From: Candidatus Zixiibacteriota bacterium
Lineage (GTDB): Bacteria; Zixibacteria; MSB-5A5; GN15; FEB-12
NCBI GenBank assembly: GCA_024278935.1
Contig: JAJRSF010000012.1
Span: 1-36,341 of the forward strand
Direction: 5' to 3'
DNA: 36,341 bases
Made by a program: the position numbers and the translations under genes. This document shows, piece by piece, positions 1,616-34,414 of the stretch (position 1 is its first letter; the number at the start of each line of letters is the position of its first letter). The notes under the pieces were generated by a model. That model was not told the origin of the DNA and searched no databases. It was given only the letters and a program-made list of their open reading frames with translations.

Positions 1616-2116
1616 ATGGAACACACAAAAGAAGAAATTTCTGAAATTTTAAAAAGAGCTATCAAAGGTGAAGAAGACAGGTATACTTTTTATCAGATGT
1701 TATCCAAAAAAGCTGATGACACCCAAGCGAAAATAATTTTAGATAAATTGTGTACCGATGAAACCGAACATAAACAAGTTCTTATTGATTTATACAAAAA
1801 ACATGTCTCCGAAGACTTAGGTCAACTTCCTGAAACAGGTATTGATTCCTTATCTGAAATTATCAAAAAAGGTCAGGAAATAAGCAGAGCAACAGAAATA
1901 GATCTTATCAATTTAGCTATTGAAGCAGAGATCGCTGCGACAAAATATTATCAGGATGAAAACAATCTTATCACAGACCCACGTTTCAAAGAAGTCTTTG
2001 ATAAACTTGCCAAAGAAGAACATGACCATTATGAAATGCTTGTTGCCGAGAGAGATGCTATTTCAGGATCACATCATTGGTTCAGCATTGACAATAGTTC
2101 TCCTATGGAAGACTAA
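1616..2116 (+). CDS. Ferritin-like / rubrerythrin-type diiron protein
   Basis: A 166-residue all-helical protein with two sets of carboxylate and histidine ligands typical of the rubrerythrin/ferritin-like diiron fold: GEEDRY near residue 20, DETEH near 50, EAEIAATKYY near 105 and EEHDHYEM near 135. It has no C-terminal rubredoxin CxxC domain, so it is an erythrin-type protein rather than full rubrerythrin. Likely role: peroxide reduction or iron handling in the cytoplasm. A Shine-Dalgarno (AGGA) lies before ATG 1616. It sits just upstream of two peroxiredoxin genes, which supports a peroxide-defence role. The true substrate and electron donor cannot be read from the sequence. Confidence 0.85.
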   Translation: MEHTKEEISEILKRAIKGEEDRYTFYQMLSKKADDTQAKIILDKLCTDETEHKQVLIDLYKKHVSEDLGQLPETGIDSLSEIIKKGQEISRATEIDLINLAIEAEIAATKYYQDENNLITDPRFKEVFDKLAKEEHDHYEMLVAERDAISGSHHWFSIDNSSPMED

Positions 2117-2131
2117 GTAGAAAAAGTTATT

Positions 2132-2617
2132 GTGGCAGAAATGCAGATTAAAAATAGAAAATTAGAAGTTGGTGATAAGGCTCCGGATTTTACTCTGGAG
2201 TCTCACAACGAGGGAGAGCTTAATTTAGCTTGGTACCAGGGACGCAAAAATGTCGTGGTCGCTTTTTATCCCGGCGATTTTACCCTTGTCTGTTCAAACC
2301 AAATTCCCGGCTATAACAAACTACTCGAAAAATTTGACGAATTTAATTGTCAGCTGTTTGCTGTCTCTGTTGACTCAATTGCCTGCCATGTGGCATGGGC
2401 AAAATATATGGGTGGCATCAACTACCCGCTTATGTCTGATTACTATCCCCATGGCGAAGTTGCTGCAAAGTTCGGTGTCTTAAACGAACGAGGCTACGCC
2501 GACAGGTCAGTCTTTCTCATCGACAAAAATGGTATTATCAGGTTTACCGATTTTCTCGAATACAACTTAATGCCTGACAATGAAAAACTATTTACAGAAC
2601 TTGCGAATCTAAAATAA
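2132..2617 (+). CDS. Peroxiredoxin (AhpC/TSA family, cysteine type)
   Basis: A 161-residue thiol peroxidase of the AhpC/TSA fold. The peroxidatic Cys is Cys54 in PGDFTLVCS, with the family Pro and Thr upstream, and Arg in YADRSVFLID is the usual active-site arginine. Cys73 and Cys85 are possible resolving residues. The architecture is closer to AhpE/1-Cys-like short peroxiredoxins than to typical 2-Cys AhpC, because no C-terminal VCP motif is present. The start used is GTG 2132; ATG 2141 three codons on is an alternative. It lies 15 bases after the ferritin-like gene and 48 bases before the Sec-peroxiredoxin, so the three probably act together against peroxide. Confidence 0.9.
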   Translation: MAEMQIKNRKLEVGDKAPDFTLESHNEGELNLAWYQGRKNVVVAFYPGDFTLVCSNQIPGYNKLLEKFDEFNCQLFAVSVDSIACHVAWAKYMGGINYPLMSDYYPHGEVAAKFGVLNERGYADRSVFLIDKNGIIRFTDFLEYNLMPDNEKLFTELANLK

Positions 2618-2665: not shown

Positions 2666-3100
2666 ATGTTAAAAATTGGCTCTCAAGCTCCAAAGTTCAA
2701 ACTGGAATCTTCAAACGGTGAACAGTTTTCATCGGATGAAATAAAAGACAAATTTACGGTGATAGTCTTTTATCCCAAAAACAATACACCCGGCTGAAAT
2801 CGCCAACTTGCAGCTCTGGAAGAGTTGAGAACAAAATTTGAAAAATTAAACACGGTCGTATTTGGAATTAACTTTGCATCGGTTACATCGCATCAGAATT
2901 ACTGTTCCAAAAAAGGATTCAATTTCCCATTACTTTCAGACCCCGATGAAAAAGTAATTGCACAGTTTGAAGCTCAAAAACCTGATGGCAAAGGTGTCCT
3001 AAGAACTGTCTACGCTCTTAACCCAAAAGGCAAAGTTATTTATGCTGAACGGGGAATGGGCGATTTTGCTGAAATTATCGAGCTGATAAAAGCATCATAA
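2666..3100 (+). CDS. bcp: Bcp/PrxQ peroxiredoxin with in-frame UGA, probable selenoprotein
   Basis: A 144-residue Bcp/PrxQ-type peroxiredoxin if codon 44 (TGA, 2795-2797) is read through. ATG 2666 follows an AGGA Shine-Dalgarno by six bases. The residues before the TGA read VFYPKNNTPG and those after read NRQLAALEEL. In Bcp proteins the residue after TPG is the catalytic peroxidatic cysteine, so the TGA is exactly where Sec replaces Cys. Downstream the family pattern continues (FPLLSDPD, then VYALNPKGKV) with no frame change. Only one Cys remains, Cys80 in NYCSKKG. It is 36 residues after position 44, the spacing of the alpha-3 resolving Cys in one class of Bcp, so a Sec44-Cys80 selenenylsulfide is inferred. 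A hairpin follows the TGA. A standard gene caller would split this gene or start it late (ATG-less remainder from 2825). Confidence 0.88.
2811..2827 (+). promoter_or_regulatory. Candidate bacterial SECIS hairpin
   Basis: A 7-bp stem, CAGCUCU (2811-2817) with AGAGUUG (2821-2827), includes one G-U pair and closes a GGA loop at 2818-2820. The loop begins 20 bases after the UGA at 2795-2797 and has G in its first two positions. Both points agree with the usual description of bacterial SECIS elements, which lie inside the reading frame just after UGA and bind SelB. Folding was done by eye only. Confidence 0.6.
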
Positions 3101-6169: not shown

Positions 6170-7522
6170 ATGGCGTTAGATATTTTAGTACCTCAAATGG
6201 GTGAGTCGGTTCTCGAAGGAACGATTCTTGAATGGAAAGTAAAAGTTGGCGATACTGTAAAATTGAACCAACCATTAGTAGAATTAATGACTGATAAAGT
6301 GAATATCGAAATCCCTGCCGAAGCTGCCGGGATTATCACACACCTCTATGTAAAAGAAGGCGATGTTGTTCCTGTGGGAACACGTATCGCAGTTATCGAC
6401 GACGGCTCAGGTGATTCAGCTCCGGCACCAACTGCAACTCCAAAAACTGAATCTGCACCATCGGCGGCTAAAGCTCCTGCTGCAGCACCTACACAATCTG
6501 CTCCTGCAACTTTTAAAGCAACTGCCGATGCCGGCAAAGGAAAAATGTCTCCAAAAGTTCGTATGATGATGCGTGAATATGGTCTCGATTTTAACTCTAT
6601 TATACCTACCGGTAAAGAGGGAAGAGTCACTGTCGACGATGTCAAACGCACCGTCGAATCTCGTTCTACTTCCGCAGGCTACACTCTCGGACCAATTCCT
6701 GCACCACCTGCTCCTATGCAAGCGGTCGCCGCGTCAGCACCTCAAGCGAGTGCATCATCTGCTCCTGCCGAACCACTTGTCAAAGTTGAGATCCCAACTT
6801 TTGAACCGCTTCCGATTAACCAACGTGAAACTCGTAAACCTCTTGAAGGTATTAGAAAAGTTATTTCTGACCATATGATTAAATCGATACAAACCTCTGC
6901 TCATGTAACAACATTTCAGGAATTAGATTTAACAGAGTTAGTAGAATATCGCAATGAAATAAAAGCATCTTTCAAACAGACCTATGGTGCCAATATAACA
7001 TTTATGCCATTTATCGTTAAAGCTGTTTGTACTGCTTTAAAAGAATTTCTAAAGATGAACGCCTCGATGACTGAAAAAGAAATTATCTATAAAAATTTCT
7101 ATAATATAGGTATTGCTGTCGCACTTGATGATGGTCTTATTGTTCCTGTAATTAAAGATGCTGATAAAAAAACTATTGTAGAGCTTGCTGTAGAAATAAG
7201 TCAACTTGGTTTAAAGGCTCGGAATAACCAGCTTTTACCAGATGATGTTTCAGGTGGTACATTCTCAATTACAAATGCAGGTATGTTTGGCTCATCAGCT
7301 TCTACACCGATTATCAATCAACCTCAAGTAGCAATTTGAGGAATCCATGCTATTATGAAAAAGCCATGGGTTGTAAATGATGAGATTGTAAAACGTTATA
7401 TCTCAAACTTTGGATTGTCTTTTGACCATCGTTTAATTGATGGATCTACCGCTGTTCAATTCTTGCATCGAGTACATGAGTATCTTGCTGATATGAGAAA
7501 ACTTTTAATGCAGCTTAGGTAG
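6170..7522 (+). CDS. 2-oxoacid dehydrogenase E2 (lipoyl acyltransferase), interrupted by in-frame TGA
   Basis: The full frame is 450 codons with a TGA at codon 390 (7337-7339). Order: lipoyl domain (residues 1-80, lipoyl Lys43 in MTDKVNIE), Ala/Pro linker, E3/E1-binding domain (MSPKVRMMMREYG, near 127-160), second linker, then the CoA-dependent acyltransferase domain from about 225. The catalytic SFDHRLIDG (HxxxDG) lies after the TGA, so termination at 7339 would give an enzyme without its active site. The region reads INQPQVAI-TGA-GIHAIMKKPWV. Homologues usually have a hydrophobic residue at that place. The frame, spacing and motifs are intact on both sides, and the final stop is TAG at 7520. 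The SD is AAGG. lipB follows 8 bases later and supplies the lipoyl precursor. The partner E1 and E3 are not here, so pyruvate, branched-chain and oxoglutarate specificity cannot be told apart. The TGA could be recoding, a nonsense mutation or a sequence error. Confidence 0.85.
7342..7372 (+). other. Hairpin directly after the in-frame TGA of the E2 gene
   Basis: AAUCCAU (7342-7348) pairs with AUGGGUU (7366-7372), and GCU (7349-7351) pairs with AGC (7362-7364) across one bulged C, closing a 10-base loop. The loop begins 12 bases after the TGA and lacks G in its first two positions, so it fits the SECIS pattern less well than the hairpin at 2811. It may be a by-product of the coding sequence. 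Confidence 0.3.
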
Positions 7523-9936: not shown

Positions 9937-10419
9937 CTAGTCTGTATCTTCTGTTGAAACTGTGAATGAATCCGGTTTGCTACCATGTTCAAATTTATCT
10001 ACACCCTCGATGAGTGTTACCCAAGCGAGAAGGGCACATTTTATACGTACCGGAAATTGACGAACACCCTTGAGCGAATCAAGGTCGCCAATGTCTTCGG
10101 TGATATTGGACTCTTCGCCTTTGAGCATTTTTTTAATCTGTTCGGATATCTTTTTGACTTCTTCAAGCGACTTGCCTTTGATAAACTCGGCAAGCATCGA
10201 ACCCGATGCAACCGATATAGCACAGCCTTTACAATTGACATGTACGTCGGCGATATTGTTTTTGCTGTCAACTTTGAGTTCCATCTTGAGTTCATCACCG
10301 CATGATGGGTTGTGACCGTCGGATGTAACGTTTTTATCATCTAGTGGCTTTTTGCCACGTGGTGCTTTATAGTGATCGAGAATTATTTCCCGATACATAT
10401 CATCTAAATTTTCACTCAT
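9937..10419 (-). CDS. sufU: SufU Fe-S scaffold / sulfur relay protein
   Basis: A 160-residue IscU-like fold. The three zinc/cluster cysteines are visible in NPSCGDEL (near residue 41), NCKGCAIS (near 65) and RIKCALLAW (near 127). The gap of about 60 residues between the second and third Cys is characteristic of SufU rather than IscU. SufU accepts persulfide sulfur from SufS and delivers it to SufBCD. Its ATG overlaps the end of sufS by 8 bases, indicating translational coupling. A short acidic tail follows the core. Confidence 0.95.
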   Translation of the reverse strand: MSENLDDMYREIILDHYKAPRGKKPLDDKNVTSDGHNPSCGDELKMELKVDSKNNIADVHVNCKGCAISVASGSMLAEFIKGKSLEEVKKISEQIKKMLKGEESNITEDIGDLDSLKGVRQFPVRIKCALLAWVTLIEGVDKFEHGSKPDSFTVSTEDTD

Positions 10420-33976: not shown

Positions 33977-34414
33977 ATGGCAGTCAATAAAGCAATTTTA
34001 CTTGGGAATCTTGGAAAAGATCCAGAGCTAAGATATACATCAGGAGGCAAAGCGGTCGCATCGTTTTCACTCGCAACATCCGAACGCTGGTCTGGTGCTG
34101 ATGGGCAAAAACAGGAATCTACCACATGGCACAATATTGTTGTCTGGGGCAAACAAGCTGAAGTAATGAAAGAATATCTTTCAAAAGGTCAGCAAGTATA
34201 TATTGAAGGACGTATCGCAAATAGAAGTTATGATGACAAAGATGGCGTCAAAAAATATATCTCCGAAGTAGTCGTAACAAATTTTTCATTCGTTGGCAAC
34301 AAAGGTGACAACAGAGGCAGTTCTGGTTCATCAAGCCAAGCTCCTCCTGCCGATATGCCTTCCGGTCCTCCATCAGGTGGTGGCGGCGGAAGCGACGACG
34401 ATCTGCCGTTCTGA
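33977..34414 (+). CDS. ssb: Single-stranded DNA-binding protein
   Basis: A 145-residue SSB: an OB-fold in residues 1-105 (MAVNKAILLGNLGKDPELRY, then WHNIVVWGKQAE and GRIANRSYDD), a Gly/Ser/Pro-rich linker, and the acidic tail DDDLPF that recruits repair and replication proteins. The tail must be the exact C-terminus, and it is followed immediately by TGA. This is the best proof in the window that TGA is a normal stop. GAAAGGG precedes ATG 33977. Confidence 0.97.
   Translation: MAVNKAILLGNLGKDPELRYTSGGKAVASFSLATSERWSGADGQKQESTTWHNIVVWGKQAEVMKEYLSKGQQVYIEGRIANRSYDDKDGVKKYISEVVVTNFSFVGNKGDNRGSSGSSSQAPPADMPSGPPSGGGGGSDDDLPF

Follow-up and report, generated by a model that had tools for sequence, protein, structure and literature searches.

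An in-frame UGA at the catalytic position of a Zixibacteria Bcp/PrxQ-type peroxiredoxin very probably encodes selenocysteine

Among the genes in the window, by which is meant the whole stretch of 36,341 nucleotides analysed here (contig JAJRSF010000012.1 of assembly GCA_024278935.1, Candidatus Zixiibacteriota bacterium), is one for a Bcp/PrxQ-type peroxiredoxin, PrxB, whose reading frame is interrupted by a single UGA. Comparison with related sequences makes it very probable that positions 2666-3100 constitute a functional selenoprotein gene with selenocysteine (Sec) at residue 44. This reading, put forward in a preliminary description of the DNA, is now supported by several lines of evidence. 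The TGA is present in 15 of 15 full-length orthologues, none of which has Cys in its place; purifying selection is apparent both before and after this codon; a covarying hairpin follows it; and the genome carries selB, selC and selD together with a selA homologue. The features of the gene are as follows.

2666 to 3100, forward strand: PrxB, a Bcp/PrxQ-type peroxiredoxin gene with an in-frame UGA, 144 aa
2795 to 2797, forward strand: UGA codon 44, predicted to be read as Sec at the peroxidatic position; TGA in 15 of 15 orthologues
2811 to 2827, forward strand: SECIS-like hairpin CAGCUCU-GGA-AGAGUUG, 7 bp with a 3-nt loop starting GG
2903 to 2905, forward strand: codon TGT of Cys80, aligned with the resolving Cys84 of X. 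campestris Bcp

The frame opens with ATG at 2666 and closes with TAA at 3098-3100, its sole interruption being the TGA at 2795-2797 in NNTPG-TGA-NRQ, so that the open frame with TGA at codon 44 described earlier is borne out by the sequence. A Pfam AhpC-TSA match spans residues 4-126 unbroken over the TGA (E 6e-33), and the active-site motif PxxxTxxC/U is present as P37-K-N-N-T41-P-G-U44. When solved structures were searched by sequence, the best matches were the Bcp/PrxQ entries of Xanthomonas campestris (PDB 5iiz and related), which share 34% identity with PrxB in structural alignment and have their peroxidatic and alpha-3 resolving residues at the same positions. Residue 44 aligns with the peroxidatic Cys48 and residue 80 with Cys84, and the earlier placing of the TGA at the catalytic Cys of Bcp proteins is thereby confirmed; the Xanthomonas protein has Cys48 where PrxB has a predicted UGA-encoded Sec, and PrxB, at 144 aa, is the shorter of the two. 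Bcp/PrxQ structures were also among the top fold matches to an AlphaFold model of PrxB (pLDDT 93.6), in which Cys80 sits on helix 73-83 (alpha-3). Position 44 aside, Cys80 is the only Cys of the protein, as had been claimed. PrxB scores 75 bits against the NCBIfam Bcp model PRK09437, below the curated cut-off of 140, and by this measure is a divergent Bcp-like subfamily outside that equivalog.

The strongest argument for Sec comes from the orthologues. A search of 60 relatives, later extended to 132 genomes of the Zixibacteria phylum, gave 15 genomes with a full-length PrxB orthologue, each with a single TGA, always at this codon and in the context [F][Y/H]xKxNT[P/G]G-TGA-N/D or near variants of it. 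No Cys version of the subfamily was found among the 132 genomes; below the orthologues, which score 194-242 bits, come ordinary Bcp proteins with Cys, at about 117 bits or less. The orthologues belong to two families of one order and show 40-73% identity where this was measured, and in a tree of PrxA (the neighbouring peroxiredoxin) and PrxB the PrxB branch is fully supported and holds Sec sequences only. Downstream of the TGA, dN is 0.11-0.33 and dS exceeds 1, with similar values upstream (Nei-Gojobori estimates made separately for the two parts). Since dS lies far above dN there, the part behind the TGA is under selection as protein. One further copy, in genome G037 (L110:3741-4088), keeps the frame and lacks the active-site stretch including the TGA (...GSRDSAF-RLAALEG...), which is either a deletion or an assembly artefact.

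It could be argued that PrxB is really a Cys-type Bcp gene whose TGA arose by a chance nonsense mutation or a wrong base call, particularly as premature stops occur in other conserved genes of the assembly (selA, the E2 gene at 7337, and genes for a carboxyltransferase, a class-II tRNA synthetase and a Band 7 protein). However, 15 separate genomes have TGA at the exact catalytic position, and both the purifying selection beyond it and the conserved hairpin speak against a dead or misread gene. The orthologues thus refute a pseudogene or assembly error, which is now highly improbable.

The preliminary description had also pointed to a 7-bp hairpin with a G-containing loop at the spacing expected of a bacterial SECIS. 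The hairpin starts 13 nt and its loop 20 nt past the UGA. The published bSECIS rules ask for a loop of 3-9 nt, a stem of 4-16 bp, a G in the first two loop positions, a UGA-to-loop distance of 16-37 nt and a minimum free energy of -7.5 kcal/mol or lower. Loop (GGA), stem (7 bp), G and spacing (20 nt) agree with these rules, while the energy, -7.2 kcal/mol, falls just short of the limit; values in relatives range from -5.6 to -15.2. The claim therefore stands as to spacing, loop and stem, and gains from covariation, with the energy marginally outside. Dinucleotide shuffles of the single PrxB sequence found its hairpin fold to be ordinary (z -0.3 to -0.5), and as this gave no significance, recourse was had to alignment and synonymous-codon tests.

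In eight sequences of family f1, picked for fitting one register, 91% of cells are paired and three pairs have changed on both sides, the column pair 18-32 being seen as UA, CG, AU and GC; none of 500 shuffles reached the covariation score of these eight, and no slid register came near it. Synonymous-codon shuffles, which keep the protein constant, gave, over all 14 sequences, a mean fold z of -1.2 for the segment that starts with the UGA and of -0.7 to +0.3 for other segments of PrxB (combined p 1.5e-4, but the sequences are non-independent). The hairpin is displaced by 1-2 nt in the f2 and G012 sequences and was not seen in the same register in genus g30, so that pairing is weaker when all 14 rows are held to one register. 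Conservation of the loop GG is not independent evidence, because it lies in conserved Leu-Glu codons.

A selenoprotein gene calls attention to the decoding machinery, and the 3.40-Mb draft genome (68 contigs) was searched for it. It holds selB (314 bits, over the cut-off), a tRNA-Sec gene (selC) with a UCA anticodon (64.5 bits) and selD (372 bits), the last with an in-frame TGA of its own near the N-terminus, in a CAG-U motif. The selC gene was found with its own family model; Rfam gave no match on the window or around selB. A selA homologue lies directly upstream of selB. In the other PrxB genomes searched, selA is free of stops, selB is present except in the incomplete G012, where it was not found, and tRNA-Sec is present where it was looked for. 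Of the expected set, selB, selC and selD are intact, but selA carries an in-frame TGA in this assembly (L001:1109-1111, contig C64). Almost every relative compared has a Leu codon (CTT, TTA, CTG or another) at that position; selA of twelve other genomes searched has no stop.

If real, the selA TGA would mean that Sec synthesis has probably been lost in this strain, and that PrxB here ends at codon 44. Such a recent loss draws its appeal from the failure to find any other selA and from the Leu that relatives nearly always have at the affected codon, and it is held back by the intact state of the other three genes and by premature TAA, TAG and TGA codons in unrelated genes of the assembly, such as those for E2 and the class-II tRNA synthetase, which point to noise. 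A 2-oxoacid dehydrogenase E2 gene in the window (6170-7522) has a premature in-frame TGA at 7337-7339 (QVAI-TGA-GIHAI), at a Leu-like position; this acyltransferase is the only E2 found in the genome, and the stop is absent from relatives. Further apparent premature TAA, TAG and TGA codons came up when 785 kb of the genome were scanned, in a list that also includes true gene ends and antisense frames; in two of the three TAA/TAG cases that were tested, a Pfam domain continues across the stop. Apparent premature stops lie within or between conserved domains at L157:7091 (TAA; carboxyltransferase), L161:567 (TAG; class-II tRNA synthetase) and L156:16415 (TAA; Band 7). Because TAA, TAG and TGA all occur prematurely elsewhere in the assembly, the selA TGA is more simply seen as part of its nonsense noise, whether consensus error or strain noise, and this is the likelier account from the sequences at hand; loss of the pathway is accordingly given a low probability.

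The selA and E2 codons raise another question, namely whether UGA is read through or reassigned in this organism, generally or in a certain context, as Trp, Leu or another residue rather than Sec. Both in-frame TGAs stand at Leu codons and share the context ATTTGAGR. Neither is common to relatives, though, and since premature TAA and TAG are present as well, reassignment of UGA was rejected. Moreover, TGA is the terminator of the SSB gene (DDDLPF-TGA, at 34414) and of SufS (at 10412), which upholds the earlier statement that TGA is a true stop elsewhere in the window, while homologues have the catalytic Cys at the residue aligned with codon 44, and tRNA-Sec and SelB are there to decode it. A meaning of UGA other than Sec is therefore scarcely credible for PrxB.

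In peroxiredoxins, the peroxidatic chalcogen attacks the peroxide, and the selenenic acid formed in the case of Sec is then resolved. For PrxB we infer Sec insertion, peroxide activity, the role of Cys80 and the reductant as follows. SelB with Sec-tRNA(UCA) would recognise the hairpin just past the UGA, and Sec would be inserted at residue 44. Sec44 would attack H2O2 or an organic peroxide, and Cys80 on helix alpha-3 would probably resolve the selenenic acid; the selenenylsulfide so formed would be reduced by thioredoxin or a reductant of that kind. The proposal that Cys80 resolves Sec44 is plausible for this protein, given its alignment with Cys84, but does not extend to the subfamily: Cys80 is missing in eight of the 15 orthologues, a single branch (support 81/96) accounting for seven of them, and in six of the 15 there is no Cys whatsoever. 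With more than half lacking Cys80, the conserved element is Sec44, and Sec44-Cys80 chemistry is not general. Judged by their residues, the orthologues without Cys80 must use a 1-Sec mechanism, in which a thiol from outside the protein would resolve the selenenic acid.

PrxB lies in a neighbourhood that includes two further genes of interest.

1616 to 2116, forward strand: ferritin-like/rubrerythrin-domain protein, the upstream gene, in the conserved neighbourhood
2132 to 2617, forward strand: PrxA, the neighbouring peroxiredoxin, with TLVC in this window

In family f1, the genes for gluRS, the ferritin-like protein, PrxA and PrxB stand together. The place of glnRS varies: in several f1 cases it comes after this set, in f2 before it, and in genus g30 (G032) PrxA and PrxB have it between them. 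Of the three-gene peroxide-defence set suggested earlier, the conserved neighbourhood has been substantiated, and a joint function may be supposed from it. The description of the neighbour as a Cys-type peroxiredoxin applies here (TLVC) and not throughout the order: every f1 genome seen has Cys in PrxA, and in f2 and f4 the motif is TPVU, with TGA (L106, L107, L111, L112). This difference between families amounts to a Sec/Cys exchange inside one order. Two genomes, G040 and G049, have TGA in both tandem genes.

Sec-containing peroxiredoxins with a TxxU motif are listed in reviews as COG1225 Bcp/PF00578 (PMC9312934, PMC13188914), and they were abundant in ocean metagenomes (PMC2398784). The Sec-containing Bcp type is thus an already known family, to which PrxB adds a member in the uncultured phylum Zixibacteria. 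Alike are the AhpC/TSA fold, the predicted Sec in TPGU (TxxU) at the peroxidatic position, the UGA with an adjacent SECIS-like hairpin and the bacterial Sec machinery. PrxB differs in the NRQ after Sec, in having no Cys version in 132 genomes of its phylum and in the absence of the resolving Cys from half of its members. With the NCBIfam model PrxU (NF040737) it shares the concept of a Sec peroxiredoxin and stands outside the equivalog, its score of 33.7 bits lying far below the cut-off of 270; PrxA is nearer to that model, at 78.8 bits. The name PrxU recalls the Sec peroxiredoxin of Eubacterium acidaminophilum, a protein cited in PMC13188914 (ref. 83). A literature search gave nothing more specific on Sec-Bcp than the reviews, and no description of Zixibacteria selenoproteins.

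The findings point to Sec decoding in Zixibacteria and to a Sec peroxiredoxin that is conserved there. Automatic annotation would truncate PrxB or start it late, and a mechanical list of open reading frames indeed begins it at codon 54. The orthologues offer a natural experiment, in which Sec is kept in all members and the resolving Cys comes and goes; with PrxA having Sec or Cys depending on the family, it becomes possible to ask why Sec stays in one peroxiredoxin and not in the one next to it. A broader reading is offered tentatively, and the odds are somewhat against it: PrxB could be an obligately Sec-containing Bcp subfamily, with one clade of 1-Sec enzymes in which the resolving Cys was dropped, leaving Sec as the sole redox residue; it might form a Sec tandem with PrxA (TPVU + TPGU) in part of the order, and a Sec-based peroxide/iron module with the ferritin-like protein. 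In another phylum, a metagenome-assembled genome of the Acidobacteriota has a Bcp-type gene (L051:3001-3413) with TPGU-TTE followed by a frame break, possibly a second Sec Bcp.
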